From positions 130,669 through 194,668 of the forward strand of contig NZ_LT615228.1 in NCBI RefSeq assembly GCF_900096765.1: DNA of 64,000 nt, read 5' to 3'. The position numbers and the translations under genes were made by a program. Below the pieces are notes generated by a model. The model was not told the DNA's origin. It saw only the letters and a program-made list of their open reading frames with translations, and did no database searches. This document shows positions 15,276-38,655 of the stretch, one piece after another; within the stretch, counting starts at the first letter, position 1; every line of letters starts with the position of its first letter. Origin of the DNA: Polynucleobacter necessarius (lineage in GTDB: Bacteria > Pseudomonadota > Gammaproteobacteria > Burkholderiales > Burkholderiaceae).

Positions 15276-16622
15276 TTATTGCGCAACAGCCTCACGAATC
15301 ATGCCTGCGGCAACAGTATGGTTAGTCGCTTCATCAATCAAAATAAATGCGCCAGTACGTTGGGATTGATCAAATAGATCGGCAACGATAGGCTTTTGCA
15401 AGATGAAGTCTACACGTCCAATTTCATTAGTAGATAGTGCATGCACATCACTGGCGTGTGAGAGGGTTTGCACATCTAATACTTGTTGAATGTTCTTCAC
15501 CTTTGCGCCAACAGTATTGCTGGTGTGGCGCAGAGCATATTTGCGGGTCAATGAGAGTGGTTCGCTATCTAGCCAGCACAAATCAGCAGAAAGCTGTTTG
15601 CTTAACACTGGTGGCTTACTATCTTCTGCACTAATAAACAGTGAGCCACGCGAGATATCAATATCTTCTGCTAACTGAATAGCAACAGCTTGACCAGTTT
15701 GGGCAGAGTCAACGGCATTGCTACCATTGGTTTGTTTGTTGCTTGAGCGGTTGCCTAAATAGATCTTAGAAACTGTCGCTTCAGAGCCACCTGGTAGAAC
15801 CTTAATCTTTTGACCTTTGCGAATACTGCCAGACTCAATCTCACCAAGGTAGCCACGGAAGTCATCAGAAGCGCTGCCATCTTGGCGTGCCACATACTGA
15901 ACAGGGAAGCGCAGAGCGAGTTTTTCGGACTCTGGGCTGGTATCTAAGCTTTCCAACCACTCAAGGAGGGTGGGGCCCATATACCAAGGAGTATTTTTGC
16001 TGTTGGTAACAACGTTGGCGCCTAACAAAGCAGAGATGGGAATTAAGGTTGGCTTTGGTAAACCAATCTTTTGAGCTAAATCTTCGATAGAGGATTTGAT
16101 GGTGTTGTAAACCTTCTCATCAAACTCAAATAAGTCTATCTTGTTGATAGCAAACACAACATGACGTAATCCCAATAAATGAACAATTGCAGCATGGCGC
16201 TTGGTCTGTGCCAGTAAAGTTGCTGGAGTGGTGCTGAGATCAACCCGGGTGGCATCGACGAGGATGACTGCTACGTCAGACTGTGAGGCGCCAGTAACGA
16301 GGTTGCGGGTGTACTGCTCATGACCTGGCGCATCAGCAACGATGAATTTACGCTTAGGTGTTGAGAAGTAGCGATAGGCTACATCAATGGTGATGCCTTG
16401 CTCACGCTCAGCCTCAAGACCGTCAGTCAGGAGGGCTAAGTCCACGCCAGCATCGGAAGAGGTGACGCGAGCATGTTTTGTTTTAGAGAGAGACTCTAAT
16501 TGATCGACCAAAATCGATTTGGTGTCATACAGTAAACGCCCGATGAGCGTGCTCTTGCCGTCATCTACGCTACCAGCAGTAATGAATCGAACAACGTTTT
16601 GGTGATTTTGATTGGTAGTCAT
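15276..16622 (-). CDS. cysN: Sulfate adenylyltransferase subunit 1 (GTPase)
   Basis: The regulatory GTPase of ATP sulfurylase, which activates sulfate to APS with CysD. EF-Tu-like motifs are the P-loop GSVDDGKST (17-25), DAPGHEQYTRN and NKIDL. Two beta-barrel domains follow. At 448 residues there is no fused APS kinase domain, which is normal for this group. It overlaps cysD by one base. The reading frame looks intact although its pathway partners cysH and cysB are broken. Confidence 0.96.
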   Translation of the reverse strand: MTTNQNHQNVVRFITAGSVDDGKSTLIGRLLYDTKSILVDQLESLSKTKHARVTSSDAGVDLALLTDGLEAEREQGITIDVAYRYFSTPKRKFIVADAPGHEQYTRNLVTGASQSDVAVILVDATRVDLSTTPATLLAQTKRHAAIVHLLGLRHVVFAINKIDLFEFDEKVYNTIKSSIEDLAQKIGLPKPTLIPISALLGANVVTNSKNTPWYMGPTLLEWLESLDTSPESEKLALRFPVQYVARQDGSASDDFRGYLGEIESGSIRKGQKIKVLPGGSEATVSKIYLGNRSSNKQTNGSNAVDSAQTGQAVAIQLAEDIDISRGSLFISAEDSKPPVLSKQLSADLCWLDSEPLSLTRKYALRHTSNTVGAKVKNIQQVLDVQTLSHASDVHALSTNEIGRVDFILQKPIVADLFDQSQRTGAFILIDEATNHTVAAGMIREAVAQ

Positions 16623-17545
16623 CAGAAGTAACCTTCTTTCTTACGGCGCTCCATCGAGGCCTCATTGGTTTGGTCATCCATGCGAGTTGCGCCACGCTCA
16701 GTGATTTCGGTAATCGCGGTCTCAGCAATGATGTCCAGGGGGTTAGCTGCAGTGCTCAATACGGGGCAGGTACAGCTGATATCGCCCACGGTACGAAAGC
16801 GCACATCCAGAATTTCACTTACATCACCAGCTGCCTTAGGGGTGACGTCGGTCACAGGTACCAAGAGATTATTCTTCTTCACCACTTCACGTTTGTGGGT
16901 GTAGTAAATGCTTGGCAGGGCTAAATTTTCACGGGCAATGTATTGCCAGATATCGAGCTCGGTCCAGTTGGAGATCGGGAACACGCGCATATTTTCACCT
17001 TTGGCGATGCGTGCGTTATAGAGATTCCATAACTCTGGGCGTTGTGCCTTAGGATCCCATTGGCCAAACTCATCACGGAAAGAGAAAATGCGCTCTTTAG
17101 CGCGCGCCTTTTCTTCGTCGCGGCGTGCGCCACCCATTAGGGCGTCAAACTCATATTCAGCGATAGTTTCAAGTAGGGTGACAGCTTGTGCAGCATTACG
17201 AGAATCTGTTTCTTTGCGCAAACGCACCGTGCCTTTTTTGATGGAGTCTTCAACATGACCAACAATCAGTTTTACGCCGGTATTTTTCACGACCTCATCA
17301 CGATACTGAATCACTTCTGGGTAGTTATGACCAGTATCAATGTGCAAGATTGGGAATGGTAGTTTTACAGGGCGATCGCCAAACTGGAACGCTTTACGAG
17401 CGAGGTGAAACATCACGATAGAGTCTTTGCCGCCCGAGAAGAGCATAGCTGGATTAGAGCACTGTGCTACCACTTCGCGAATGATGTAGATAGATTCGGC
17501 TTCTAGCCAATCTAAGTGATCATCGAGTAATTTTTGTTCTTGCAT
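16622..17545 (-). CDS. cysD: Sulfate adenylyltransferase subunit 2
   Basis: The catalytic subunit of ATP sulfurylase, forming APS from ATP and sulfate. The PP-loop SGGKDS is at residues 37-42, followed by HIDTGHNYPEVIQYRD, GARRDEEKARAKERIFSFRDEFGQWD with the conserved basic segment, and the C-terminal MERRKKEGYF motif. Its 307 residues are full length. It is translated directly into cysN. The frame is intact, but its product APS can no longer be reduced if the neighbouring cysH is dead. Confidence 0.97.
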   Translation of the reverse strand: MQEQKLLDDHLDWLEAESIYIIREVVAQCSNPAMLFSGGKDSIVMFHLARKAFQFGDRPVKLPFPILHIDTGHNYPEVIQYRDEVVKNTGVKLIVGHVEDSIKKGTVRLRKETDSRNAAQAVTLLETIAEYEFDALMGGARRDEEKARAKERIFSFRDEFGQWDPKAQRPELWNLYNARIAKGENMRVFPISNWTELDIWQYIARENLALPSIYYTHKREVVKKNNLLVPVTDVTPKAAGDVSEILDVRFRTVGDISCTCPVLSTAANPLDIIAETAITEITERGATRMDDQTNEASMERRKKEGYF

Positions 17546-17592: not shown

Positions 17593-18348
17593 TTATTGAT
17601 TAACGTGCAATCCACACTCTTTGCTATCGCTTTGTAACCACCACCAGCGACCAGCACGAATATCCTCACCCTTCTTGACCTGACGGGTGCAAGGCTCACA
17701 GCCAATGCTGGGGTAGCCTTTCAGGTGCAGGGGATGGATTGGAACGTTCTCTTGTTTAATGTAAGCCCAAATGTCTTCTTCAGACCAATCAAACAAGGGA
17801 TTGAATTTAGCGATGCCCCGAGCGTCATCTAATTCTTCAAAATTTAGTTCAGTGCGAGTGGTGGATTGCTCACGTCGCTGACCAGTAATCCACGCATCAG
17901 CACCAATTAATGCTGCATTCAGAGGTTTGATCTTACGTGCGCCACAGCAAGCTTTCTTGGGTTCTTCGCCTTCATAAAAGCCATTCATGCCGTATTGATC
18001 AATGAAGGCTTGTACATCCGCTTCTTGCGGATAGACTTTCTCGATCGAAACACCATAACGATCTTCAGTAGTCTTGACCATATCAACGGTTTCTTGATGA
18101 AGACGACCAGTAGCTAAGGTGAATAATTTAACCTAGGCATTGGCTTTTTTGATGGCATCGGTGACCACCATATCTTCTGCGGCCAAACTCGTTGCAAAGC
18201 GCACGTCTGAAAAGCGTCTCGTAATTTCAGCGAGGCGCTCAACTAAAACGGCTGTTTTTTTGACGAGCTCCTCTGGGGTGAGTGTGCTTGCTGGGATAGA
18301 CCAAAAAGTGGGTTTTTCGAGGGTAGAAGTTGGTATTTGCTGTGTTAT
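17593..18348 (-). pseudogene. cysH: cysH, [4Fe-4S] adenylyl-sulfate (APS/PAPS) reductase, disrupted
   Basis: The frame read from 18348 gives a complete CysH of about 251 codons, with two lesions. The first codon after a well-placed CGGAG ribosome site is ATA instead of ATG, and there is no other in-frame start for about 50 codons. Codon 72 (18133-18135) is TAG, between AEDMVVTDAIKKANA and VKLFTLATGRLHQET, both normal CysH sequence. The part after the stop still has the cluster motifs KACCGARK and GCEPC and the catalytic ECGLH. A product starting at the internal ATG 18081 would have only 162 residues and lack the nucleotide-binding N-terminal third. Both changes are single transitions if the parents were ATG and CAG. 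Confidence 0.92.
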
Positions 18349-18498: not shown

Positions 18499-19450
18499 TT
18501 AGTCTAAATCGATGTCGGTTTCTGGTTTAAGGGCTGCCTTGACCTTGGCTTCATCTAATTTGGGCGAGCATAGCTCAATGAATTCATAGGCAAAACCACG
18601 TAAAAAGTAGCCTTTTCGTAATGCAATGCGGGTCGTGTTGTTCTCAAAAAGATTGCCAACATCGAGCAGACTCAGTTTGGTATCACGGTCTGATTGGTAG
18701 GCCATCGAAGCGATGATGCCGATTCCTAATCCAAGTTCAACATATGTTTTGATCACGTCAGCATCCAGAGCTGACATGACGATATCTGGCGTAATGCCTG
18801 CTTTAGCAAAAGTTTCGTCAACCGATTTTCTTCCAGTAAATCCTTCGTGGTAAGTGACGATTGGATATTCAGCAATATCTTCGAGCGTCAGATTTTTCTT
18901 GTTCTCGAGGGCATGACCTTTTGGAACTACTACGGTGTGATGCCAAGAGTAATAGGGGAAGGTGACCAATTCAGGAATTCCTTCCAATGCCTCAGTAGCG
19001 ATACCAATATCTGCACGACCCTCAAGCAATAGCTCTACGATTTCTTGAGGACTACCTTGATGAAGGGCCAGATGTACATTCGGAAACTTTTTCTTAAATT
19101 GACTCACCACATTAGGTAGTACATAACGCGCTTGCGTATGAGTAGTGGCAATAGTGAGTTGACCTTTATCTGCTTGGCTAAATTGAGCACCGAGTTGCTT
19201 AATATTTTTGGTGTCAAGCAAGATGCGCTCAACAATCGTGAGGAGCTCTTTTCCAGGCTCGGTAAGGCCGAGAAGGCGTTTTCCTTTACGAACAAAGACG
19301 AACAAAGAGCTCGACCCCGAGTTCATCTTCCAAATCTAGGATGTGTTTACTAACCCCAGACTGGGAAGTGGCTAGAGCATTACCCACTTCAGTCAAATTG
19401 AAGTTGCGGCGAACGGTCTCACGAATAATACGAAGTTGTTGAAAATTCAT
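18499..19450 (-). pseudogene. cysB: cysB, LysR-type regulator of sulfur assimilation, frameshifted by a 10-bp tandem duplication
   Basis: Translation from 19450 gives a normal CysB start (MNFQQLRIIRETVRRNFNL), with the helix-turn-helix ALATSQSGVSKHI and then GVELFVR. It is then thrown out of frame and stops after three more codons. The cause is visible: ACGAACAAAG stands twice in tandem (19289-19298 and 19299-19308). Removing one copy restores ELFVRKGKRLLGLTEPG and a 313-residue protein, the normal CysB length. The rest of the effector domain (TIATTHTQARYVLP onward) is undamaged, suggesting a recent event. A product beginning inside the gene would lack the DNA-binding helix. Confidence 0.94.
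19289..19308. repeat. 10-bp tandem duplication inside cysB
   Basis: Two adjacent identical copies of ACGAACAAAG. The second copy is the inserted material that shifts the cysB frame by one base. A replication-slippage event is the simplest origin. Confidence 0.95.
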
Positions 19451-19465
19451 AGTGACTCTATTGCC

Positions 19466-20557
19466 TTAATTCTTTGTAGGTTTTTCGAACACGCGCAGTT
19501 GGGAGGGAATGATTCTAACTTGCTGCCCTTCGGTGAGTCCGAGTTTAGCCACTTCTAATTTGGGCAGCTCTACTCCATAAAACTGCTGAGCGTATTCACC
19601 GCTATCAGTAGATAGTGCAGAGAGCTCAATTCGTGAGTTCAAGCCAAATGAAAGAATGCGATCAATTTTGGCTGGCACGCCATCTGATCTGCCATTATCA
19701 ACAACGATATCAAGTTCATGAGGCCGCGCAAAAGCCAATACTGGCGCTCCCTGTGAAATACTGTTGGCATGATTGTGCTCAAGTTTGTCATTACCCACCT
19801 GTATACCTTCACCTTCAACACGTCCATGAAATAAGTTCACATTGCCCAAGAAGCCATAGACAAATGGCGTTGCCGGTCTTTCATAGACCTCATCAGGGCT
19901 GCCAATTTGTTCGACATTGCCTTGATTCATGAGAACTACTCGATCCGCCACTTCCAACGCTTCTTCTTGATCGTGGGTGACGAAAATAGAGGTGATATGC
20001 AGCTCATCATGCAGTTGGCGCAACCAGCGACGTAATTCTTTGCGAACTTTTGCATCTAATGCGCCAAAAGGCTCATCCAATAAAAGGACCTTAGGTTGTA
20101 CAGCGAGCGCTCTTGCTAGAGCAATACGCTGGCGTTGTCCACCAGAGAGTTGTGCGGGGAAGCGATCATGCAGCCAATCGAGCTGAACCAATTTCAGTAA
20201 CTCATGTACTTTGTCAGCGATTTCTTCTTTACTTGGACGCTCTTTACGACTTTTTACTTGCAACCCGAATGCAACATTATCAAAAACAGTCATGTGCTTG
20301 AATAGCGCGTAATGCTGGAAAACAAAGCCTACTTGACGATCGCGAACTGGGGTTGCTGATGTATCAATTCCATCCAAAATAATATTGCCGCTATCTGGTG
20401 TTTCCAGGCCGGCAATAATACGTAATAGGGTTGTCTTACCACAACCAGATGGGCCTAAAAGGGCAACCAATTCACCAGAAGGGAAATCCAAAGAAACATT
20501 GTTGAGCGCAACAAAGTTTCCAAATATTTTGTTGATATTTCTGACTTCAATACTCAT
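19466..20557 (-). CDS. cysA: Sulfate/thiosulfate ABC transporter, ATP-binding subunit
   Basis: The ATPase of the sulfate importer, acting at the inner face of the membrane with CysT and CysW. Walker [10 protein letters not shown] (residues 33-41), signature [15 protein letters not shown], and Walker B with DEPFGALD are all present. The C-terminal TOBE-like extension is complete in the 363 residues. The start overlaps the end of cysW by 4 bases. The frame is intact, although the binding protein sbp upstream is deleted internally, so the ATPase may have no functional importer to energise. Confidence 0.96.
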
Positions 20558-21426
20558 AACGGTCCTTCGATTGCGGGCGGGGCATTTGTTTCGGATTTAA
20601 GGCGCCATTCAACATAAGTTTTGGCGGCTAAAGTAAGTAGGGCTAATAGTGCGAGTAAAGAGGCCACTGCAAATGCAGCGACATAGTTGTATTCGTTGTA
20701 GAGAATTTCTACTTGTAATGGAATAGTGTTGGTATAGCCGCGGATATGTCCGGATACCACCGATACCGCTCCAAATTCACCCATGGCGCGAGCATTACAA
20801 AGAATGACGCCATATAAGAGGCCCCATTTAATGTTGGGAAGGGTTACATACCAAAAAGTTTGCCAACCATTTGCACCCAATACCGTTGCTGCCTCTTCTT
20901 CTTCCCGACCTTGAGCTTCCATCAACGGAATCAGTTCACGTGCTACAAATGGAAAGGTTACAAAGATCGTTGCGAGGATAATTCCGGGAACCGCAAAGAT
21001 AATCTTGATGTCATGCTCTGATAGCCAGCCACCAAACCAGCCTTGCGCTCCAAAGACGAGCACAAAGATTAGGCCTGCAATCACGGGTGACACTGAGAAT
21101 GGAATATCAATCAGGGTAATGAGGAGATGTTTTCCTCTGAAATCAAATTTAGCGATTGCCCATGAAGCTGCTACCCCAAATACAAGATTTAAAGGAACCG
21201 CAATTCCTGCCGCTAGCAAAGTCAATTTAATGGCAGACCAGGTATCTGCCTCAGTCAGTGCGTTGAAGTAATAGACCCATCCTTTATGTAAGGCCTCTGC
21301 GAATACTGAGAATAGCGGCAGCAATAAGAAGATGCCAAAAAAACTCAAGGACAGAAATAAAACAAGCGATTTAACGATTGCGGAATCACGGGTAGCGCTA
21401 CTGCGCTCAAAGCGGGTTATGCTCAT
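20554..21426 (-). CDS. cysW: Sulfate ABC transporter permease CysW
   Basis: One of two membrane subunits of the sulfate importer; 290 residues from the ATG at 21426, which overlaps the cysT stop in a TAATG arrangement. A longer in-frame start at 21459 adds residues ([11 protein letters not shown]) that do not fit the family. About six membrane segments are visible. The EAA loop that contacts CysA reads [21 protein letters not shown], with the conserved Gly. Confidence 0.95.
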
Positions 21427-22262
21427 TAGCGAGTCCTCCCGGTTCTTTTTGCAGTCCAAGCCTGCAAACCATTGATTGCCAGAAGCAAAATCATAGAAAT
21501 CGCAAGCATTACCGAAGCAATCGCTGTGGCACCAGCATAGTCATACTGTTCTAGTTTGGTAATGATCATCAGCGGCGTGATTTCAGAAACCATGGGAATG
21601 TTTCCGGCAATAAAAATTACCGAGCCATATTCTCCGACTGCACGGGCAAACGCCAGGGCAAATCCAGTTAATAGTGCAGGAGTCAGAATCGGTAAAACGA
21701 CTCTCGTAAAGGTTTGCCAGCGACTGGCCCCTAGGCTTGCTGAGGCCTCTTCCAGCTCAATCTCAATTTCTTCAAGAATTGGCTGAGCTGTTCTCACTAC
21801 AAATGGAACCCCAATAAATATCAATGCGACCAATACACCCCATGGAGTAAAGGCTATCTTGATGCCAAGCGGTTCGATGTACTGCCCGATCCAACCATTT
21901 TTTGAATAAAGGGCTGCTAGCGCAATACCAGTTACAGCGGTGGGCAGTGCAAAAGGGAGATCCACGAGGGCATCCACTAAATTTTTGCCAATAAAGGTAT
22001 AGCGAACTAAGGACCAGGCAAGCAACAGCCCAAAAATAGAATTAATAAATCCAGCCAGTAAAGCCATACCAAAGCTCAGGCGATAAGAGGCCGTCACTCT
22101 AGGGGCGGTCACTTCGTTAATAAATTCGCTAAAAGTAAGGCTCGTTGTCTTAAAAATCACTGCAGACAGTGGAATTAAGACAATGATGGATAGATAGGTG
22201 ATGGTGTAGCCAAGCGATAAGCCAAAACCGGGGAAGATGCTATTTTTCTTTACTGAAGACAT
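21426..22262 (-). CDS. cysT: Sulfate ABC transporter permease CysT (CysU)
   Basis: The second permease subunit, 278 residues with about six membrane helices. The EAA loop is [19 protein letters not shown], and [14 protein letters not shown] is a typical conserved membrane segment. It is the first gene after the terminator at 22355-22386, so a promoter lies between. The perfect palindrome at 22316-22338 is the obvious control element there. The frame is intact. Confidence 0.95.
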
Positions 22263-22416: not shown

Positions 22417-22950
22417 TTATTTGACAATTATTTCGTCAAAAACACCGCCATCGTTAAAGTGGGTTTTTTGGGCTTTCTGCCAGCCACCAGAAGTTTTAGG
22501 GTTTGGTGTGATGACTTCGATACCTGGTTTGGCGAGGTCATTCCAATCCTTAATGCCTTTTGGATTGCCTTTGCGAACCAAGAAGACGATTGTCGATGTG
22601 TATGGTGAAGAGTTATCTTTGAATTTCTTTTGCCAATCTTTAGCAACTAAGCCTTTTTCCGCCAAGATATCAATATCGTAAGCGAGGGCAAGTGTTACCA
22701 CGTCAGCATCTAAACCATCAAGTACGGCGCGGGCTTGTTTGCTTGAGCCCCCATGAGATTGTTTGATAGAAATATCTTGGCCAGATGTTTTTTTCCAATC
22801 GGCAGTAAACACCTTGTCGTAATCTTGATAAAGCTCACGAGTGGGATCGTAAGAGACGTTCAAGATCGTTTGCTGAGCATAGGCTGAAGAAATTAGTCCA
22901 ACCCCTAAAAACAGTATTGCTGCGAATTTTGATAAACTAATGCGTTTCAT
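22417..22950 (-). pseudogene. sbp: sbp, periplasmic sulfate-binding protein with a large internal deletion
   Basis: The protein begins with a signal peptide ([25 protein letters not shown]) and the normal first lobe through [11 protein letters not shown]. It then jumps directly to [21 protein letters not shown], which is the C-terminal end of the family. About 150 residues of the usual 330 are missing, including most of the second lobe. The join is in frame at about 22483, at a GGTGGC that could have been shared by both parent ends. The remaining 177-residue product cannot close around sulfate. I chose the ATG at 22950 because AAAGGAATTGG is an ideal ribosome site for it. Confidence 0.9.
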
Positions 22951-22993
22951 TCCAATTCCTTTCATTTGATGAAAAGAATTTAGAGAAAAACCC

Positions 22994-23636
22994 TTAGGCT
23001 GAGAAGCAAGAAAAAGTGGATTGGTTATCGTTAAATTGAATTAGAGAAGAATTGTCTTTTAAAACAATACGTTGGCTTTCTTCCTGAGACTCTAGAACAG
23101 AGTGTTTAAAGTGGTTAAATAGTTTAAGGCCATCGGGCCATGGACCAAAACCAGAGGCGGTATTGATATGGCCTGCGTCTTTGAGTGTAAAGGTGCAACT
23201 GCCCCAGCAGTTCCCCCAAAGTTGTGCTTTAGAAGCCTGCATCCAGGGATCGTTATCGCTTGCAATGAGAAGGCTGGGAACAGGAAGCCTATTCGCTGGA
23301 ATTTGAGCGCGAATACTTTCTGACGCGCCAATTCCATGCCAGCGTTTTACGCCAGATTGATCAAAACGCTCTGGATCTGCCGGTGCTACAAGCATGAGGC
23401 CAGCAACCTTTTCAGGATTTTCGATGGCAGCCAAAATACTAGCAAGGCAGCCACGCAGGGGAAACTAGATCAGTTAATGTACGGCCAATATTGGTAGCCC
23501 AGTTCGACAAAATGGGCTGCTCCCAATTCTGATAGATTCGTTTGGATCCAGGAATTTGAGCTTCTATCCAACTTTGCCAATGAGCATCCTCGCTACCGCG
23601 ATAACCAGGAATGATGAGGGTATGAGTATTTGTCAT
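22994..23636 (-). pseudogene. RBBP9/YdeN-type serine hydrolase, frameshifted
   Basis: The first 63 codons from 23636 give a normal start for this alpha/beta-hydrolase family (TLIIPGYRGSEDAHWQSW), ending at SPAWL. The frame then runs into TAG. The family sequence resumes in another frame at CLASILAAIENPEKVAGLMLVAPADP and continues to the end with the catalytic His in DAGHINTASGFGPWPDG. The missing piece is the nucleophile elbow (family consensus HSFG or similar). TGGCTG at the join (23448-23453) fits a deletion between two copies of that hexamer, inferred as 20 bases. Without the nucleophile neither fragment can be an esterase. Confidence 0.87.
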
Positions 23637-23789: not shown

Positions 23790-24698
23790 ATGTCTAGTCA
23801 TCGTCCAGTATCTCATTCATTCCAACTCCCCCAGGTGGTTGCCCAACTGCGGTTATCTCGCGAGGAAACCCATAAGATTCGTCATCTTGGCAGAGTGCGG
23901 GAGCTTCCATCAAGAGAGGCCTTAGAGGAGGTACTGAAGGGTGTTTTTGCTGCTTTATTTCCCACTCATTATGGGAGATCCGATTTAACGGATGAGAGTA
24001 TCGATTACTTTGTAGGTAGTGTTTTGAGCGTAGCTTTGAACACCTTATCGGAGCAAATTCGACGCGGTTTGTATTTTTCTTCAAATAGCAATTTGGAGGA
24101 AGAGGCAACATTTGATGCGCTAGCAGAAAAGCTGACCACTCAATTTGCATCTGAACTTCCTGCAATACGGGCATTAATTGTGAGTGATATCCGTGCTGCC
24201 ATGAGTGGTGACCCGGCAGCAACCAGTGTTTCTGAAATTCTCTTGTGCTACCCCGGTGTTAGTGCAGCCATTCATTACCGCATTGCTCACGCCTTATATG
24301 AGTTAGGGACGCCTTTATTGGCGCGGTTTATCTCTGAGATTGCGCATTCAAAAACAGGCGTCGACATTCACCCGGGCGCCAAGATTGGGGAAGGTTTCTT
24401 TATCGATCACGGAACTGGCGTAGTCATTGGTCAAACAGCCATCTTGGGCAAGAACGTCAGGCTTTATCAAGCAGTGACTTTGGGGGCGAAGCGCTTTCCT
24501 GAAGACGATGAAGGCAATCTTATTAAGGGCGCAGATCGACACCCCATTTTGGAAGACGATGTGGTGATTTATGCGGGTGCAACGGTGCTTGGTCGCATCA
24601 CGATTGGCGCTAGATCAACGATTGGCGGGAATGTCTGGCTAACCAGGAGTGTTCCGCCTGATAGCAATATTTCACAAGCGCAAACACTGGGTCACTAG
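23790..24698 (+). CDS. cysE: Serine O-acetyltransferase, first gene of the encapsulin operon
   Basis: This enzyme makes O-acetylserine, the acceptor for cysteine synthesis. The 302-residue protein has a long helical N-terminal domain and a left-handed hexapeptide beta-helix. Visible active-site parts are DIHPGAKIGEGFFIDHGTGVVIG and the VTLGAKRFPEDDEGN loop, with IGGNVWLTRSVPP near the end. This long form is the one found with family 2A encapsulins. It starts 50 bases upstream of the encapsulin gene on the same strand. The frame is intact, but the neighbouring cysK is broken, so the fate of O-acetylserine is open. Confidence 0.93.
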   Translation: MSSHRPVSHSFQLPQVVAQLRLSREETHKIRHLGRVRELPSREALEEVLKGVFAALFPTHYGRSDLTDESIDYFVGSVLSVALNTLSEQIRRGLYFSSNSNLEEEATFDALAEKLTTQFASELPAIRALIVSDIRAAMSGDPAATSVSEILLCYPGVSAAIHYRIAHALYELGTPLLARFISEIAHSKTGVDIHPGAKIGEGFFIDHGTGVVIGQTAILGKNVRLYQAVTLGAKRFPEDDEGNLIKGADRHPILEDDVVIYAGATVLGRITIGARSTIGGNVWLTRSVPPDSNISQAQTLGH

Positions 24699-24748
24699 AC
24701 CTCATCAATTTATTTCAATGTTTTTAATCAACCACTAAAGGAGTAGTT

Positions 24749-25669
24749 ATGGCAGAAGTTATTCAAAGTCCAACCGCATTAGGCGATTTAGCAGCACGGC
24801 AATTAGCCAATGCAACCAAGACGGTACCCCAGTTATCCACTATTTCTCCTCGTTGGTTAACTCAGCTTTTAGGTTGGGTTCCGGTTGAGGCTGGCATCTA
24901 TCGCCTCAATAAAGTGATTAATCCATCCGAAGTATTAACGGACTGTTCTAGTCGCGATAACGAGCGCGTATTGCCGCAAACTTTTGTGGATTATGATGCA
25001 AACCCACGCGAGTATTTCCTGAGCGCTGTTAATACTGTGTTGGATGTACATACTCGTATTTCTGATTTGTATAGCAGTCCATACAACCAAATCAGCGAGC
25101 AGTTACGCTTGACGATTGAGACCGTTAAAGAGCGCCAAGAGGGTGAGCTCATTAACAATGCTGAGTATGGCTTGCTAGCTAGCGTAGCGCCTGATCAGCG
25201 TATCAAAACCCGAACTGGTGCACCAACACCAGATGACTTGGATGAGTTGCTTACCAAGGTTTGGAAAGAGCCTGGATTCTTCTTGGCTCACCCAAAAACG
25301 ATTGCAGCATTTGGTCGTGAGTGCACCCGCCGTGGTGTTCCCCCTCCAACAGTAGGCTTGTTTGGCAGTCAATTCTTGACATGGCGTGGTGTTCCATTGA
25401 TTCCTTCGGACAAGGTCAAAATTCAAGATGGTAAATCTTCTATTTTGTTAATCCGTACTGGAGAGAAGAAGCAGGGTGTAGTGGGCCTATATCAACCAAA
25501 TTTGCCGGGTGAGCAAAGCCCAGGCCTATCTGTGCGCTTTATGGGTATTAACAATAAGGCAATTGCCTCTTATTTGGTTTCCTTGTATTGCTCTTTGGCA
25601 GTCTTGACTGATGATGCTCTCGCAGTTCTTGATGGTGTTGAGGTTGGTAAATATCATGAGTACAAGTAA
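24749..25669 (+). CDS. Family 2A encapsulin shell protein (SrpI-like nanocompartment)
   Basis: An HK97-fold shell protein that self-assembles into a protein nanocompartment for sulfur metabolism. The 306 residues match the SrpI type: LAARQLANATKTVPQLSTI at the N-terminus, then LGWVPVEAGIYRLNKV, YLSPYNQ-like DLYSSPYNQISEQLRLTIE, the TRTGAPTPDDLDELLTKVW segment, and the C-terminal MGINNKAIASYLVSLYCSLA. No internal cyclic-nucleotide domain is present, which distinguishes family 2A from 2B. A strong AAGGAG site precedes the ATG. Its 3' end overlaps the cargo desulfurase start by 14 bases. Old annotations may read 'srpI' or 'major membrane protein I'. The frame is intact. Confidence 0.93.
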   Translation: MAEVIQSPTALGDLAARQLANATKTVPQLSTISPRWLTQLLGWVPVEAGIYRLNKVINPSEVLTDCSSRDNERVLPQTFVDYDANPREYFLSAVNTVLDVHTRISDLYSSPYNQISEQLRLTIETVKERQEGELINNAEYGLLASVAPDQRIKTRTGAPTPDDLDELLTKVWKEPGFFLAHPKTIAAFGRECTRRGVPPPTVGLFGSQFLTWRGVPLIPSDKVKIQDGKSSILLIRTGEKKQGVVGLYQPNLPGEQSPGLSVRFMGINNKAIASYLVSLYCSLAVLTDDALAVLDGVEVGKYHEYK

Positions 25670-27422
25670 CCCAGTTCATCCAGGCTTGCTAGACCCCAAG
25701 GTATTGGCTGACTTGGCTAATCAAAATTTCTCCGATTACCAGCCACAGTCAAATAGCTTTGGGGATCCGCGCGGAAATCTCCCGAGTGGCGTAACTAGTC
25801 ACTCTTTTCAACCCAATGCATCTTCGGATCTGGCGGCGATTGCCCAGCAAGTGCTCGCCTCTTTGCAGCATAAGCCTGGAGGCGAGTTACCTGATCACAA
25901 TCCCAGTTCATTGAGTTTGGGTGATCCACGCGGTAATTTGCCCACTGGGGTAGCAAGTCATTCTTTTCGCCCTCCAAGCTCATTAGATGTGTTGGCTGTT
26001 CCGCAGCAAGCTTTAGGTGGTCCAGCGCAGCAAGCTGGTCATGATGAGCTAACAAAAAAACCGAGCTCACTCTCTTTGGGTAGAAGTTTTGGCGCTGAGC
26101 AATTTATTCCTAACTCGCTATTGGGCGACTTGGTCAATCCCAGCAATGAATTATTTGTGAACCAGATAATTCTGGACGATATTTCAGTGCCCAAGTCTCA
26201 AAATACGGCACTTGATCCATTACTAGTTCGTAAGGATTTTCCAATCCTATCTGAACGCGTAAATGGACGTCAGCTGGTTTGGTTTGACAATGCTGCGACC
26301 ACTCAAAAGCCGCAATCAGTTATTGATCGTATTAGCTATTTCTATGAGCATGAGAATTCTAATATTCATCGTGCCGCTCATGAATTAGCTGCTCGTGCTA
26401 CCGATGCCTATGAGGGTGCCCGTGAAAAGGTACGCGCATTCATTAATGCCAAATCAGTAAATGAGATTATTTTTGTTCGCGGCACTACTGAGGCAATTAA
26501 CTTAGTATCCCAGAGTTGGGGGCGACAAAACCTTAAAGAGGGCGATGAGATTATTCTGAGCAATCTTGAGCATCATGCCAATATCGTTCCTTGGCAATTA
26601 CTCGCCAAAGAAAAAGGTTTGCGTATTCGGGTGATTCCGGTAAATGACGATGGCGAACTGCTCTTGGATGAGTATCAAAAGCTATTCAATAGTCGTACTA
26701 AGCTCGTGAGCTTTACCCATGTTTCAAACGCATTGGGTACGATCACTCCAGCAAAGAAGATTATTGAAATTGCACACTCGGCAGGCGTCAAGGTATTGCT
26801 TGATGGTGCTCAATCTATTTCGCATATGAAAGTGGATCTACAAGACCTTAATCCAGATTGGTTTGTATTTTCTGGCCATAAGGTTTTTGGACCAACGGGT
26901 ATCGGTGCTCTCTACAGCAAGGAAGATTTGCTTAATGCAACTCAGCCTTGACAGGGTGGTGGAAATATGATTCAGGATGTGACGTTTGAGCATACCAAGT
27001 TTCATGATGCACCTAGTCGTTTTGAGGCGGGAACAGGCAATATTGCTGATGCAGTAGGCCTGGGAGCGGCAATCGATTACGTCAATTCTGTTGGCATTGA
27101 ATTGATTGATCAATATGAGCACCAACTCCTGCTATATGCAACTCGCTTATTAAAAGAGGTTCCAGGTATTCGGTTGATTGGTACGGCCAAAGATAAAGCT
27201 AGCGTTTTATCGTTTGTTATTCCAGGAATTAAGACTGAAGATATTGGAGCAGCTTTAAATAAAGAGGGAATTGCAGTGCGTTCTGGTCATCATTGCGCTC
27301 AACCTATTTTGCGTCGTATGGGTGTAGAGACAACCGTTCGGCCTTCATTGGCTTTTTACAATACCTGCCAGGAAGTAGATCATATGATTGCGGTGCTTCA
27401 TCGTATTCGCAGTCAGCACTAA
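25656..27422 (+). pseudogene. Encapsulated SufS-type cysteine desulfurase (encapsulin cargo), interrupted by TGA
   Basis: Read through one TGA, this is a 588-residue SufS-like desulfurase with an N-terminal extension of about 185 residues, the hallmark of family 2A encapsulin cargo. The extension is low in predicted structure, rich in Ser, Pro, Gln and Gly, and carries SFGDPRGNLPSGVTSHSF (35-52) and SLGDPRGNLPTGVASHSF (87-104), plus a degenerate third copy near 139. The catalytic domain has DNAATTQKPQ and the PLP lysine K409 in FSGHKVFGPTG. Codon 432 is TGA between LNATQP and QGGGNMIQDV, where the family has Trp. The catalytic Cys (about C547, SGHHCAQP) lies beyond the stop, so a terminated product is inactive but keeps the loading signals. 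TGA is an ordinary stop elsewhere in the window. Confidence 0.93.
25757..25967 (+). repeat. Repeated cargo-loading motif in the desulfurase N-terminal extension
   Basis: Two near-identical 18-residue units (residues 35-52 and 87-104) share F/LGDPRGNLP-S/T-G-V-x-S-H-S-F. The DNA of the units is also similar (GATCCGCGCGGAAATCT and GATCCACGCGGTAATTT), consistent with duplication. A third, degenerate unit (SLSLGRSFG) follows near residue 139. Short conserved motifs in this region direct cargo into family 2A shells. Confidence 0.75.
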
Positions 27423-27442
27423 ATCAATGTAGTTGTAGCAAT

Positions 27443-27473
27443 AAAAAAGGCCACGCAATGTGGCCTTTTTTTT
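27443..27473. terminator. Terminator of the cysE-encapsulin-desulfurase operon
   Basis: A perfect 12-bp stem (AAAAAAGGCCAC / GTGGCCTTTTTT) with a 5-base loop has an A-run on one side and a T-run on the other, so it can serve both the encapsulin operon and the small minus-strand gene behind it. Confidence 0.92.
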
Positions 27474-27742: not shown

Positions 27743-28015
27743 ATGGCAAATCAGGGGAGTAAGCACGCGAAGGAGCAGCGCTTTTATGGGTCCTTGCTTG
27801 GCGCTTTGACAGGGGTGGCTTTAATTGGCCTCGCAGTTCATTTAGGCGCTATAAATGATTTCTTGGCTTCTTTATGGATTAATGGCGGGGATGTATGGGA
27901 TTACTTTCGAGGCATTTCGATAGCTGGTAGTTTTATCGCAGGAGTTTGGTTGATTGGTAGGCACATCAGCAGGGAGGGTGTCGCTGAGCACTTTTATGAG
28001 CATACCCCTTACTAA
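27743..28015 (+). CDS. Small two-helix membrane protein of unknown function
   Basis: A 90-residue protein with a basic cytoplasmic start (MANQGSKHAKEQRFYGS), a first membrane helix at about residues 18-40 and a second at about 57-75, ending in a His/Glu-rich tail (REGVAEHFYEHTPY). A GGGGGAATAT ribosome site precedes the ATG. No family is recognised. It lies alone between the small minus-strand gene and a convergent TauE/SafE permease. Confidence 0.72.
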   Translation: MANQGSKHAKEQRFYGSLLGALTGVALIGLAVHLGAINDFLASLWINGGDVWDYFRGISIAGSFIAGVWLIGRHISREGVAEHFYEHTPY

Positions 28016-28019
28016 GAAG

Positions 28020-28817
28020 TTATGCCAAAACGAGTTTAATTCCAACTAATAGCAAAGTAATTGCCAAGGCAGTGCGAGTCAATTTTTCGGGGAGGGTGCT
28101 AGAAAGTTTGGCACCCAGCCAAATAGCCGGAACGGAGCCTACTAACAGGCCAAATAAGAGTGTGAAATCCACATTGCCTAACCACCAATGTCCAAAGCCT
28201 GCCAGAGCGGTTAGCGGAACTGCATAAGCAATATCCGTCCCTGCAACTTCAGCGGTCTTTAAGTGTGGGTAGAGCATCAATATGAGAGTTGCTCCAATCG
28301 CACCTGCTCCAATCGAAGAAATAGTGACAAGTAAACCAATTGCACCACCAATCAGTACGGTCGCAACAATCTTAAGGCCGACTCCATGAGGCATCTTCTT
28401 GGGGTTTTTCTTTACCCACTCCAGAATTCTGGCTCTAACAGTTAGCGAAAGTGCAGTAAGAAGAACGGAGACGCCAATCGAGAAAGTAATCAGGTGTACC
28501 CAGTCTTTTGATATTGGCCCGAGCTGCTTGAGAACCAAAATAGATGCGGTTGCTGTTGTTAGACTACCGGCACATAAAAGACCAACAATATCCCATTTCA
28601 CATTGCCATGAAGACGATGGGCTGCTGTGCCAATACCTTTGGTAATCGCAGCAAATGCTAAGTCAGTGCCTACGGCTGTAGTTGGTGCAACACCAAAGAT
28701 TAGCGTCAGAATTGGCGTCATCAAAGAGCCCCCACCAACACCGGTAAGACCAACTAATAAACCGACTAGGGCACCAGAAAAAACGTAGTGCAGGGACCCC
28801 TGCAAAGCGTCAAGCAT
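28020..28817 (-). CDS. TauE/SafE (TSUP) family permease
   Basis: A 265-residue membrane protein with about eight hydrophobic segments in two repeats. The repeats carry the TSUP signature: GLTGVGGGSLMTPILTLIFG in the first half and ISSIGAGAIGATLILMLYPH in the second, with TDIAYAVPLTALAG. Members export sulfite, sulfoacetate or other organosulfur anions; the substrate here is not shown. It lies 8 bases downstream of the ferredoxin-NADP reductase gene on the same strand, so the two are probably co-transcribed. Given the loss of sulfate reduction nearby, a sulfur role would be of interest but is unproven. Confidence 0.85.
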   Translation of the reverse strand: MLDALQGSLHYVFSGALVGLLVGLTGVGGGSLMTPILTLIFGVAPTTAVGTDLAFAAITKGIGTAAHRLHGNVKWDIVGLLCAGSLTTATASILVLKQLGPISKDWVHLITFSIGVSVLLTALSLTVRARILEWVKKNPKKMPHGVGLKIVATVLIGGAIGLLVTISSIGAGAIGATLILMLYPHLKTAEVAGTDIAYAVPLTALAGFGHWWLGNVDFTLLFGLLVGSVPAIWLGAKLSSTLPEKLTRTALAITLLLVGIKLVLA

Positions 28818-28825
28818 TCCCTAAT

Positions 28826-29602
28826 TTACTTCTCAACGAACGCGCGTTCGAATACGTAATCACCCATTTGGCCTAAGCTTGGAGAGACTTTGAAGCCTTC
28901 GGCATCAAGCATCTCTGATGTTTCCTTAAGCATAGAAGGGCTGCCGCAAATCATGGCGCGATCTACTGCTGGATCCAATGGTGGCAAGCCGATGTCCTTA
29001 AAGAGTTGGCCCGATTCAATTGCAGTCGTGAGTCGACCAGTGTGTTTGAAAGCCTCGCGAGTGACTGTTGGATAGTAGATTAATTTTTCGCGAATGAGCT
29101 CGCCAAGGTATTCATCTTGAGTGAGTTCATTCTTAATGTAGTCAGCATAAGCCAGTTCGCTCACTAGACGGACGCCATGAATCAATACAACCTTTTCAAA
29201 TTTCTCATAAGTTTCAGGATCGCGAATGATGCTCATGAATGGCGCTAAGCCAGTACCAGTACTAAATAGGTAGAGATGTTTGCCAGGATTTAAATCATCT
29301 AGCACCAATGTGCCAACAGATTTTTCGCTGACCAAAATGGGGTCGCCCACTTGAATTTTTTGTAGGCGTGATGTGAGCGGACCATCTTGCACTTTAATGC
29401 TCAAAAACTCTAAATGTTCTTCATAGTTTGGACTCGCAACGCTATAAGCACGCACGAGAGGCTTGCCTTCTACCTCAAGTCCAATCATCAAAAAATGGCC
29501 GCTACGAAAACGCAGGCCTTTATTGCGAGTGGTGGTAAAGCTAAAGAGGGTGTCGTTCCAGTGGTGAACGGTTAATACGGTTTCGGTGTGATAAGCGGCC
29601 AT
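28826..29602 (-). CDS. fpr: Ferredoxin-NADP(+) reductase
   Basis: A flavoprotein that exchanges electrons between NADPH and ferredoxin or flavodoxin. The FAD motif RAYSVASPNYEEHLEF (residues 53-68) and the NADP-binding GTGLAPFMSIIRDPE are visible, along with CGSPSMLKE and the C-terminal GDYVFERAFVEK, in which the terminal aromatic and Lys are typical of the bacterial class. The 258-residue length is normal. It can feed the ISC ferredoxin. Confidence 0.95.
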   Translation of the reverse strand: MAAYHTETVLTVHHWNDTLFSFTTTRNKGLRFRSGHFLMIGLEVEGKPLVRAYSVASPNYEEHLEFLSIKVQDGPLTSRLQKIQVGDPILVSEKSVGTLVLDDLNPGKHLYLFSTGTGLAPFMSIIRDPETYEKFEKVVLIHGVRLVSELAYADYIKNELTQDEYLGELIREKLIYYPTVTREAFKHTGRLTTAIESGQLFKDIGLPPLDPAVDRAMICGSPSMLKETSEMLDAEGFKVSPSLGQMGDYVFERAFVEK

Positions 29603-29751
29603 AAAAAGCTTAGTAAATTTTGCAAATCATTGATTATCCTCAAAAATTGACCCTTTTTTGAGGGATTGAAGGATTAACTTTTCATATCAAATGCACTTTT
29701 AGTAATAAGGACGTGTTTTTCGAGTTTAAGGCCTTCACCCGCTATGATTGA

Positions 29752-30237
29752 ATGATGACTAGAGCCCAATACTTATATCTATCCCTCCTGAGCTTTGGAT
29801 TGGTTGCCTATGCTGTGGAGTTGCAGCAAGTTGGTTTCCAGGGGGTGAGCTTCTTACCTTGCCCGCTATGTATTTTGCAAAGAGTGGGTTACTTGGGGGT
29901 CGCCATTTTTTGCTTCTTGGCGGTAGGTATCCCGCCTTTGCGTAAATTCTTTCATGGGCTTGCGGTGATATCGGCTGCGTACGGCTTTTCTATTGCTGCT
30001 CGCCAAGTTTGGCTGTTATCTCATCCGGAGAGTTCTTGTGGCATTGATCCTTTAGAGACTTGGATCAATCAATTTCAGCTTGCTCAGGGCTTGCCTTGGT
30101 TGTTCAAGGCAGATGGCCTATGTTCAGCGCAATTACCAGCCATCTTTGGTCTGCAAGTTCCAGAATGGTCTTTATTCTGGTTTGGCGTACTTTTATTGGT
30201 GTTGATAATTACCTTCTTTAGAAAAATCCGTGCTTAG
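29752..30237 (+). CDS. dsbB: Disulfide bond formation protein DsbB
   Basis: An inner-membrane protein that reoxidises DsbA with quinone. It has four membrane helices. The first periplasmic loop has the CPLC pair (FLPCPLCILQRVGYLG), and the second loop has the interacting pair in SSCGIDPLETW and ADGLCSAQLP. The conserved Gln-Arg (QR) after the first pair contacts quinone. Its 161 residues are full length. Start is at the first of two adjacent ATG codons. It is divergent from fpr. Confidence 0.93.
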   Translation: MMTRAQYLYLSLLSFGLVAYAVELQQVGFQGVSFLPCPLCILQRVGYLGVAIFCFLAVGIPPLRKFFHGLAVISAAYGFSIAARQVWLLSHPESSCGIDPLETWINQFQLAQGLPWLFKADGLCSAQLPAIFGLQVPEWSLFWFGVLLLVLIITFFRKIRA

Positions 30238-30319
30238 CTAATAACAAAGCCTTCTTTTACAAAACGGGCTATAACCCATAAGATTACTTACTAAACTATT
30301 TTTGTATTAAGGAAAGCTG

Positions 30320-31274
30320 ATGACTTACTTTACCGATAACTCCCAAACGATTGGCAAGACGCCTTTAGTTCGTCTTAATCGTGTAACTGATGGGGCTAAA
30401 GCCACTGTGCTTGCTAAGATTGAAGGCCGTAACCCAGCCTATTCAGTAAAGTGCCGTATTGGTGTGGCAATGATCAATGACGCCCAAGAAAAAGGCTTGC
30501 TTGGCCCCGGTAAAGAGCTGGTTGAGCCAACCTCTGGCAATACTGGTATTGCATTGGCTTTCGTAGCAGCAGCACGTGGCATCCCGCTGACATTGACCAT
30601 GCCTGAAACGATGAGTATTGAGCGTCGCAAGTTACTGACTGCTTTGGGTGCCAAGATTGTTTTGACTGAAGGCCCTAAGGGTATGAATGGCGCGGTTGCT
30701 AAAGCAAAAGAAATTGCCGAATCAGACCCCAATAAGTATGTATTGCTTCAGCAATTTAGCAATCCTTCAAATCCAGCAATTCATGAGAAGACTACCGGCC
30801 CAGAAATTTGGGAAGACACGGATGGCAATATTGATGTGTTTGTTGCTGGTGTTGGTACGGGTGGCACTATTTCTGGTGTAGGGCGTTACATTAAACACGC
30901 CAAGAATAAGAATATTGAAGTCGTAGCCATTGAGCCGACCACTAGCCCAGTGATCACCCAAAAACTTAATGGCGAAGAAATTAAACCTGCGCCACACAAG
31001 ATTCAAGGAATTGGTGCTGGATTTATCCGTTGTAGATAAGGTTGAGCAAGTCAGCAATGAAGAGGCCATTGAATTTGCCCGTCGTATTGCCAAGGAAGAG
31101 GGTATTTTGGTGGGCATCTCTTGTGGTGCCGCAGCTGCAGTAGCCGTGCGCTTGGCTAAGAAGCCCGAATATGCTGGTGAGACTATTGTGGTTGTGCTGC
31201 CGGATGCTGCTGAGCGTTATTTGAGCTCTGCATTATTTGAAGGTGTATTTGATGAGAAGGGTCTTCCTGCCTAA
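30320..31274 (+). pseudogene. cysK: cysK, O-acetylserine sulfhydrylase (cysteine synthase), frameshifted by a small deletion
   Basis: The first 235 residues are normal cysteine synthase: [13 protein letters not shown], the substrate loop [13 protein letters not shown], and [15 protein letters not shown], which binds the PLP phosphate. After [12 protein letters not shown] the frame reaches TAA. The family sequence picks up at [19 protein letters not shown] in another frame and continues to the usual C-terminus. The missing residues are the short P-E-N-like link. CTGGATTTATCC at the join (31017-31028) fits both sides, so a deletion between two copies of GGATTTATCC, inferred as 20 bases, explains the lesion. 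The PLP-binding Lys position (normally [10 protein letters not shown]) is intact. A 239-residue product would lack the C-terminal quarter. Confidence 0.93.
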
Positions 31275-35867: not shown

Positions 35868-37631
35868 TCAGGCAAGTGTTGTCTCGTCGTGCGCTTCGAT
35901 CATGAGTTGAACGCGGGCTTGCCCCTGATAACGGTCAGTTACTAGGCGGTAGGCTAGTTTGGCCGTGGCCGGCAAGGTTTGGGTGCGGTTAAACCAAACG
36001 GCTGTTAGTGGTTTTTGGGTGAGCTGGTTATAAGAGGTATCGCCCCCTAATGGGCGAACCATCAGCCTAAGATGCTTCTCCTTCATAAGGCTTTGCTGCG
36101 TGATTTCGAATTCGCCATAGAACACGGGCTGAGGAAATCCTTGTCCCCAGATTTCTTCGGCAAGTAAGTCACCAATTTCAGGGGTGAACTCGGAAGGCGC
36201 GAGAGCGCCATCATGTGCGTGGCGACGCTCTAGTAACTCATCGGTGAGTAGGCTGTTTGCAACCTCCTGAAAGCAAGCATCAAATTTTTCAAAATCATTC
36301 TTGCGAATCGTCAGGCCCGCCGCCATAGCATGACCCCCAAATTTGAGTATCAATCCAGGCTCACGTTTGGAAACAATATCTAAGGCATCTCGTAAATGAA
36401 ATCCCGAAAGCGATCTGCCTGAACCACACAGCTCTTCTCCAGTATTGCCATCTGGTGCAAAGACGATCGCAGGGCGATTAAAGCGCTCCTTTAAACGGGA
36501 AGCCACAATGCCAACAACGCCTTGATGCCACTCTGGATTCCACAAGCAAATGCTAGAGCGTTGCGCCATCGTTCCATCTAGTTGATCCTCAGAGAGATGC
36601 GCTAGGGCAGTCTCTTGCATACCGGTTTCAATGACACGGCGCTCACGATTAATGCGATCTAGTTCTTGAGCAAGGGTCATTGCCTCATCTGAATTGTCAG
36701 TTAAGAGTAAGCGAATACCTAGCGTCATATCTGCAAGGCGCCCTGCGGCATTGAGCCGAGGACCGATAGCAAATCCAAGATCAAAGGTATTGGCTTTGCG
36801 TGGATCGCGGGCTGCCGCTTGAAATAATGCTTGGATACCAGGCTGAGATATACCTGCGCGGATGCGTTTTAAGCCATTCGAAACAAGTACGCGATTATTG
36901 CGATCCAGTTGCGCAACGTCTGCAACAGTCCCTAATGCAACTAAGTCTAATAAATTCTCAACTTTGGGTTGGGTCTCATTCGTATATTTACCGCGCTGAC
37001 GTAATTCAGCGCGAAGTGCCACTAACAAGTAGAACATCACACCAACACCAGCGAGCGCCTTGCTAGGAAAAGTACACCCTGGTTGATTTGGGTTCACGAT
37101 CGCCGTGGCTTTAGGAAGTCGATCGCCTGGTAAATGGTGATCAGTGACGATCACTTCCATGCCAAGTTCGCGGGCGCGCTCTACACCAGCCTCGCTAGCA
37201 ATACCGTTATCTACCGTAATGAGGTATTTTGGTTTTGGTGTTTGTTGTGCCGCAAGCTCAACCACCTCAGGGGTTAGGCCATATCCCATGGTAAAGCGAT
37301 TGGGAACCAAAAACTGTATGGGTGTGTCGGGTCCACCCAACATCCGTAAACCTCGCAGACCTACCGCACAAGCTGTGGCTCCGTCGCAGTCATAGTCTGC
37401 AACGATCAGCATTGACTCTTTCTTCTCCAAAATATCGGCGAGCAATGTTGCTGTGCTCAAACAGTTTTTGAGTTTGGGAGGGGGGATGAGGTTTTTCAGT
37501 TCAAGAGATAGCTCTTCTGGGGACTCCAGTCCACGTGCTGCATATAACCTAGCCAGCAGTGGGTGGAGACCACTTTGTTCCAACCAGGTAGCGGTTCGCT
37601 CTGAGAAAGGGCGTCGTGTAAACACGCTCAT
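35868..37631 (-). CDS. recJ: Single-stranded-DNA-specific exonuclease RecJ
   Basis: A 5'-3' exonuclease in recombination and mismatch repair. DHH-family motifs are [27 protein letters not shown] VDNGIA, and [12 protein letters not shown]; the DHHA1 part has [12 protein letters not shown], and a C-terminal OB domain follows. I chose the ATG at 37631 (587 residues), which overlaps the upstream stop as ATGA, over an upstream ATG at 37685 that adds residues foreign to the family. Confidence 0.96.
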
Positions 37632-38588
37632 GACTGAATAATCTCTTTCCAAGTCAGTGCTTCTGCCTTTTTCCAAAAACGCCAAGTTTTTTTGATTAGA
37701 TTCTTAGCGGTAAACAAGCGCTCACGTTTTTTGCCCTTTGGAAAATCAATGATGAGTAATTCATGTAATTGATCATTACTTAAGGCTTCGCACAGGGTGG
37801 GCCAAATCAATTCTGCTTGATCAAGCCAAGCAAATGCCCCATGTAACTGATTTGGATTGATATCCTGTTGATAAGGAATATTTAAAAGTTTGGATAGTCC
37901 AGCCAGCAAAGGGTGAGACCCATAAATCTGCTTGATACTTTCAAATTCTGATGGCGCTTGCACGCTACTCAATTTTCCGATGCCGCTAATCCATAAGGAA
38001 TTAATGCTAGGCAAACTACGTTGTTCCCGCTCTTCATTCACGGGATCAATATGCCAGAGCATCTGGATTTCATTTTGTAATTTACGCCAGCGTTTTGCGA
38101 TTCCTTCTTCATGAAAGTCGCGCGGCATCCACCAGTCAATATTGCGCCCTAAGGATTGATCGACGCTATAACTGGTCAGACTTGCAAAAGGACCCGCCGG
38201 AATAAACCAGTAATACCGATTTTGAAACAGCATTGGATGCCCGAAGTCTTCCTCAATACAAGGGAGTGCAGCTTTGAGGAGTTGGCCAGATTCAGATTCT
38301 GTGAGATCGATCTGATTTTGGCCCATCAATATGAGGTGGTCACGGGTAGCATGTAGATAAACGGGCTGCAGGCAAGCAATGATCTGATGGGGATCTACTT
38401 CTAAAGACGATTGCCCTAGCAATAGCACTGGGGCAACGGGAACTAGGTCCCCTAGCAAAAAAACGTTCGTGCGGTAGACCTTGCGGGGGTTGATCGCCAA
38501 TCAGTTGATCGTCCAGGGCATCTTCCCCTGAAAGCATCAGAGTAAAGCGGCTTGTAGAGTCCTTGGAGGGGGTGCCATTTTTCATCAT
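37628..38588 (-). pseudogene. RpfE-like regulatory/phosphoglycerate-mutase-like protein, frameshifted in a 7-base homopolymer
   Basis: A start at the paired ATGATG (38588/38585), with an AGGGGG ribosome site, gives about 42 codons ending GLPHERFF. The frame then goes astray. The other frame continues LLGDLVPVAPVLLLGQSS and runs 260 more residues to the end. The switch falls in a run of seven A on the plus strand (38457-38463); six would join the frames as HERFLLGDLVPVAP and give about 319 residues. The body resembles the RpfE-type proteins found upstream of recJ in Betaproteobacteria, which are related to phosphoglycerate mutases. It ends by overlapping recJ (ATGA). A real pseudogene, a phase-variable tract or a base-calling error are all possible. 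Confidence 0.7.
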
Positions 38589-38655
38589 CCCCCTAATTTT
38601 AGGTGGCATTTGACTATTCCATCGGTTTGTCCCAGCAATTGTCTAAACTGTCGTT

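Follow-up and report, generated by a model that had tools for sequence, protein, structure and literature searches.

Does the family 2A encapsulin operon of Polynucleobacter necessarius still provide a working sulfur compartment? The locus that raises this question lies at nucleotides 23,790 to 27,473 of the window, by which we mean the whole 64,000-nucleotide stretch that was analysed (contig NZ_LT615228.1, positions 130,669 to 194,668). Its open reading frames (ORFs) include three genes on the forward strand, in the order serine O-acetyltransferase, encapsulin shell protein and cysteine desulfurase, the last being the cargo enzyme. By kind this is an ordinary family 2A operon; its interest lies in a broken cargo gene and in repeated joint loss with sulfate assimilation. 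With a probability of roughly 0.8, we consider the operon to have been inherited within Polynucleobacter and inactivated at its cargo as part of the decay of the route from sulfate to cysteine. In our reading of the wider pattern, genome-reducing and probably host-associated lineages have repeatedly lost the encapsulated desulfurase along with the assimilation of sulfate into cysteine.

The shell protein was compared with family profiles and solved structures. It scored 531 bits against the family 2A profile NF041162 (encap_f2a; cut-off 380) and 359.5 bits against PF19307, its sole Pfam match at E <= 0.001; at the same Pfam threshold no cyclic-nucleotide-binding domain was found, in contrast to family 2B. 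The family 2B profile also exceeded its cut-off (436.5 versus 400 bits), with a best stretch that covered profile positions 216-449 only. The solved family 2A shells 8t6r, 6x8m/6x8t, 9ksl and 8wol resembled the window shell over nearly its whole length with 478-523 bits, among them PDB 8t6r (523 bits) and SrpI, 6x8m (503 bits). An HK97 fold is presumed for the shell from homology to these solved shells; a structure prediction from 17 sequences gave a poor model, with a mean predicted local distance difference test (pLDDT) score of 46.3. The pore residues G196 and P198 and the cargo-side residues F264 and Y275 were identical in all 17 aligned shells, and their counterparts in Synechococcus elongatus are G194 and P196 at the pore and F262 and Y273 on the cargo side (PMC8049743). 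Relative to G244, a Polynucleobacter genome with an open operon, the ratio of nonsynonymous to synonymous substitution rates (dN/dS) of the shell was 0.012. The preliminary description of this DNA had proposed a family 2A shell, and the profile score and top matches bear this out: the best matches are encapsulins, including the solved family 2A shells, and not proteins of another kind.

The cargo gene was also recognised correctly as to its family, a long-tailed SufS-like desulfurase. Against the cargo profile NF041166 (f2_encap_cargo1) its first part scored 527 bits and its second part 294 bits, neither of which reaches the cut-off of 800 bits alone. The SufS-like domain follows an N-terminal targeting tail of about 190 residues, in which a pattern search located the motif LADLANQNFS, resembling the LARLANEFFS of the S. 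elongatus cargo (PMC8049743). The preliminary description had treated the desulfurase as one gene, and its coordinates crossed a break that it did not mention: an in-frame TGA at 26949-26951 ends the frame at a length of 431 residues, with a further 156 codons of that frame beyond it. The lysine of SGHK (residue 409) lies ahead of the stop and the cysteine of SGHHC (residue 547 of the whole) lies behind it; judging from SufS enzymes, we take these two residues to serve pyridoxal phosphate binding and catalysis, respectively, and no single chain carries both.

To place this stop, we compared 90 loci, 10 from one search and 80 of the 486 found in another, a set in which L002 and L011 represent one place and other genomes may also occur twice. 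Four of the 90 had only one or neither of the cargo parts, and 86, including the window (L001), had both. Among the 85 other loci with both parts, the position of the stop was a sense codon in 83 of the 83 relatives that could be aligned there; in L009 the two parts share one frame, and the unaligned gap at this position is longer. At L007 3511-3540 (G138, from another family of the order), the cargo parts lie in different frames, and that gene may be frameshifted. A narrow pattern for a second S. elongatus motif, AASPYYFLDG (PMC8049743), had no match in the Polynucleobacter tails and matched 3 of 83 tails overall, so we gave it little weight. Measured up to an FDNAA motif, the tail has about 50 residues more in the window, G020 and G244 than in G243, G214 and G225. 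Two DPRG segments were found by pattern in the cargo tail (25656-26230) of the window, G244 and G020, and repeated GDPRGNLP segments were visible by eye; tail DNA contained no repeats of at least 20 bp, and a protein self-comparison returned the trivial match only.

As for the operon layout, the preliminary description of three overlapping genes was right for the shell and the desulfurase, which overlap by 14 bp, the desulfurase starting before the shell gene ends, and wrong for the acetyltransferase and the shell, which are 50 bp apart. The single terminator that it placed at the end of the operon is supported by a strong hairpin at 27443-27471 (-16.7 kcal/mol, z -5.07, matched by 0 of 200 shuffles), although a simple terminator scan did not list this hairpin; the same simple scan found no excess of promoters. 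The acetyltransferase scored 172.9 bits against TIGR01172, below the cut-off of 210.65, and 165.2 bits against NF041874 (cut-off 150); in Pfam it matched Hexapep, and SATase_N with 21.4 bits (cut-off 21). Downstream of the desulfurase, window positions 27743-28015 encode a 90-residue protein with no match in Pfam or NCBIfam. Relatives of the G244 copy, at 58-67%, occur in the window, G020, G214 and G017, and the stretches of G243 and of nine operon-free genomes showed none.

The operon is embedded in an island of sulfate-assimilation genes, as had been proposed, with the family 2A shell, the cargo desulfurase and the acetyltransferase set amid them. Using gene names taken from the G244 and G214 orthologues, we found the order cysN, cysD, cysH, a CysB-family regulator, cysA, cysW, cysT and the sulfate-binding protein gene (sbp), all on the minus strand, then a serine-hydrolase gene and the operon, followed downstream by a TauE-like exporter, an oxidoreductase, DsbB and cysK. 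Rhodanese was not among the few neighbouring genes that were family-tested, and no genome-wide search for it was made. The assumption of a working operon is not supported here: a stop cuts the cargo gene, and of the genes nearby cysH, cysB, sbp and cysK are likewise broken. The lesions of four neighbouring genes were one 10-bp insertion, two 20-bp deletions and one 0.47-kb deletion; the last is in sbp, where G244 holds 466 bp extra at a point at which window positions 22483-22489 run continuously. G020, with an intact operon, likewise carries one stop in its serine-hydrolase gene.

Table 1. Features of the encapsulin operon and the surrounding sulfur island (window coordinates)
Feature	Position	Strand	Basis or remark
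cysN and cysD (sulfate adenylyltransferase), open	15276..17545	-	G244 orthologues
cysH, adenylylsulfate reductase, broken by one in-frame TAG	17596..18348	-	G244 orthologue, TIGR02055 260.6 bits
CysB-family regulator, frameshifted, 10-bp insertion (net +10 bp)	18502..19450	-	G244 orthologue, NF009327
cysA, cysW, cysT, sulfate transporter, open	19466..22262	-	G244 orthologues
Sulfate-binding protein gene (sbp), internal deletion of ~0.47 kb	22417..22965	-	182 of 334 aa left
Serine-hydrolase gene (PF06821), frameshifted, with in-frame stop	22994..23636	-	G244 comparison
Serine O-acetyltransferase (CysE/EpsC-like), open	23790..24698	+	302 aa
Family 2A encapsulin shell protein, open	24749..25669	+	306 aa
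Cargo cysteine desulfurase, whole extent including stop	25656-27422	+	Long N-terminal tail
Desulfurase N-terminal part: tail, SufS-like domain, SGHK lysine; closes at TGA	25656..26951	+	NF041166
Desulfurase C-terminal part, same frame, beyond stop, with SGHHC cysteine	26952..27422	+	NF041166
Terminator-like hairpin with U run	27443..27471	+	Folding energy
TauE-like exporter, FAD/NAD oxidoreductase, DsbB, open	28020..30237	-, -, +	ORFs, family matches
cysK, frameshifted by 20-bp deletion	30317..31274	+	G244 orthologue, TIGR01139 453.6 bits

The distribution of these genes was surveyed in 186 Polynucleobacter genomes. The shell was present in 7, the cargo gene in 8 (E <= 1e-100), the sulfate-binding protein in 19 (E <= 1e-60) and cysH in 81 (E <= 0.001, two by weak matches only). 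Seven of the eight cargo genomes bore sbp, versus 12 of the 178 others (p 3e-7); among the seven, the copy of the window's genome (G000) is a fragment, and the hit in G017 is a distant paralogue (45%) interrupted by a stop. That paralogue (G017:C1:384306-385130) has one TAA and lies near the operon remnant, and a similar paralogue lies near cysK in G020. In G244, G020 and G214, the acetyltransferase, shell and cargo genes are open and have the same neighbours as in the window, so that a recent acquisition of the operon through horizontal transfer into this strain is not favoured; the synonymous divergence (dS) of the shell, similar to that of lysS and prfB, also disfavours it. The operon block of G243 stands beside transporter genes, with cysH elsewhere, and in G052, G070 and G198 the island exists without the hydrolase-acetyltransferase-shell-desulfurase block, such that sbp adjoins the exporter gene.

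The cargo gene was broken in three of its eight carriers (G000, G165 and G017), each time by different lesions. In G165, the shell has three stops, the cargo is split over frames, and cysN, cysH, cysB, cysA, cysW, cysT and cysK are broken. A deletion in G017 reaches from inside cysW into the cargo tail; this stretch no longer holds the acetyltransferase and the shell, residues 157-587 of the G244 cargo frame remain, and cysH, cysB, cysA and cysK are broken there. A tree of seven proteins from 13 genomes placed G017 with the intact G244 (support 93) and G165 with the operon-free G052, G183 and G073 (100), while G000 fell in neither group, its own placement being weakly supported. The different lesions and the separation of the lineages in the tree thus favour independent losses. 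Of the 67 genes comparable in all three decaying genomes, 10 belong to the island and 57 lie outside; those broken in all three were cysH, cysB, the cargo gene and cysK, that is, 4 of 10 in the island and 0 of 57 outside (p 0.0003), against 0.04 shared genes expected under independence. Three further genomes showed incomplete cysH genes: one TAG in G176 (G176:C1:1360899-1361633), two pieces in G168 and a cut by the contig end in G216; no encapsulin cargo was found in any of these.

Gene decay was counted at ORF cut-offs of 110, 130 or 85 residues depending on the comparison, so the counts differ. In a 344-kb sample of G000, 29 of 227 G244 ORFs of at least 130 residues were broken, compared with 9 of 230 broken in G244 in the reverse direction (p 0.0006), both counts containing artefacts. 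At this cut-off, the broken fraction was 13% in G000 (29/227), 30% in G165 (37/124) and 24% in G017 (15/62); among the controls with an intact operon it was 1/50 in G020, 0/25 in G214 and 0/9 in G243. With lysS, at the island edge, counted inside, the island was hit harder than the rest in all three decaying genomes at the 85-residue cut-off: 7/18 versus 23/227 in G000 (p 0.0025), 9/15 versus 30/122 in G165 (p 0.007) and 7/11 versus 9/59 in G017 (p 0.0018), with 1/17 versus 0/37 in the control G020. The oxidoreductase at 28826-29602, counted among the island breaks of G000, reflects a start-site artefact, and without it the island count became 6/18 (p 0.011).

These figures bear on the possibility that decay is random across the genome and that the cargo is a chance casualty without any bearing on function. 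The high proportions of broken genes in the three genomes and the drawing of the island bounds after the fact speak for it, but the excess in the island in all three, and the recurrence of the same four genes each time, make it an unlikely account. The TGA could instead be a sequencing or assembly error, the operon then being in working order. It is one base only, both cargo halves are under constraint, the shell is open, and a 326-residue gene of G244 (no Pfam match) appears frameshifted at window positions 37631-38609 through single-base indels, one of them beside an A run. The genome, however, is in one contig and 99.99% complete, the counts of broken genes are strongly asymmetric between G000 and G244, the island holds multi-base indels and the 0.47-kb deletion, and the cargo is broken by other lesions in two further lineages. 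The window lesions were inspected individually, and error is not favoured as their general cause; for the TGA itself we consider it improbable.

We regard it as very improbable that the desulfurase is still made, either by read-through of the UGA or by a restart at the ATG at 26967 that would give a two-chain split enzyme. The reading frame is conserved on both sides of the stop, and this first ATG lies only 15 nt downstream with GGTGG ahead of it; however, the GGTGG falls within glycine codons of a conserved stretch and need not be a signal. The release factor 2 gene (prfB) is open, no SelB was found over the cut-off, and the 16 internal stops counted among broken genes in the 344-kb sample include all three stop codons (7 TAG, 5 TGA and 4 TAA, one a start-site artefact), with no codon that looks reassigned; UGA reassignment and selenocysteine insertion are accordingly not favoured. 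Similarly far-fetched, in our estimate, is a shell kept on purpose without a working enzyme, whether for a truncated tail-bearing cargo or for a two-chain split desulfurase; if true, the compartment would be a re-used one and not a dying one.

Several observations weigh against an inactivation linked to the loss of sulfate-to-cysteine assimilation. The desulfurase domain still looks conserved both before the stop (dN/dS 0.011 versus G244) and after it (0.035 versus G020), other values for the desulfurase domain not being computable at saturated synonymous sites; the tail gave 0.06-0.13. With both halves conserved, the options are a very recent break, one wrong base, or a product that is somehow still made; together with the conserved shell, the halves where computable point to a young break. 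The indels at 37631-38609 could come from sequencing error. G000 keeps cysN, cysD, cysA, cysW and cysT, and it has another cysE, IscS and further PALP-family proteins intact elsewhere; the IscS desulfurase is open at 9301-10560, so that iron-sulfur clusters could be supplied independently of the broken enzyme. In G165, sbp and the acetyltransferase are open. The cysH of G176 is interrupted in a genome in which no encapsulin cargo was found, and the cargo parts of L007, from another family of the order, are in different frames. The island bounds were set after the lesions had been seen, so that the p values are not blind, and they assume independence of genes. Finally, the genes adjoin one another, and regional loss or lost CysB control could explain their joint decay with no direct functional link.

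Under the decay of sulfate-to-cysteine assimilation that we prefer, the following course would be expected. In the intact relatives, the acetyltransferase would feed cysteine synthesis, and the overlapping shell and desulfurase genes would be expressed together. The tail would tether the desulfurase inside a 60-subunit shell of HK97 fold, with loading and assembly presumed from the family; cysteine would enter through the fivefold pore, and its sulfur would be removed and kept or passed on inside. Given the conserved pore and cargo-side residues, the mechanism of the family should apply to these relatives. In the genome studied here, the stop ahead of the catalytic cysteine most likely leaves an empty shell or one with dead cargo. 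The loss in three lineages would most simply fit a cysteine-rich setting, probably a ciliate host, in which sulfate is no longer assimilated. Genome decay and size suggest that the decaying lineages are probably host-associated.

Recent work reportedly describes the storage of elemental sulfur by a family 2A encapsulin. In a close known system, SrpI and its cargo CyD of S. elongatus PCC 7942, the tail loads the cargo, the shell is a T=1 HK97-fold particle whose fivefold pore is narrow, and the desulfurase is more active when encapsulated (eLife 2021, PMC8049743). The window operon shares with it the shell family, the tailed desulfurase cargo and the sulfur-gene setting, and differs in its broken cargo gene and in the acetyltransferase directly upstream of the shell (PMC8049743). 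Serine O-acetyltransferase and rhodanese were the most enriched accessories of family 2A cysteine desulfurase operons in a 2021 Nature Communications survey, and the desulfurase and serine O-acetyltransferase are common to those operons and to this one; the main text of that survey mentions neither Polynucleobacter nor a pseudogene (PMC8346489). The Euplotes endosymbiont P. necessarius has been described with a genome of about 1.6 Mb, a G+C content of 44-46% and many pseudogenes (PMC5018217), compared with 1.55-1.93 Mb, many broken genes and a window G+C content of 42.5-48% (2-kb steps) here. In the open-licence literature, which cannot prove novelty, we found no paper that joins Polynucleobacter with an encapsulin, and among the papers listed none on encapsulin pseudogenes with sulfur or on the loss of sulfate or cysteine assimilation in the P. 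necessarius symbiont.

Within one conserved neighbourhood, the genus offers natural knock-outs, with the operon intact, broken at the cargo, broken at the shell or partly deleted. Because the cargo has been lost repeatedly together with cysH, cysB and cysK, the compartment is tied to the assimilation of sulfate into cysteine, a role that thereby becomes testable.

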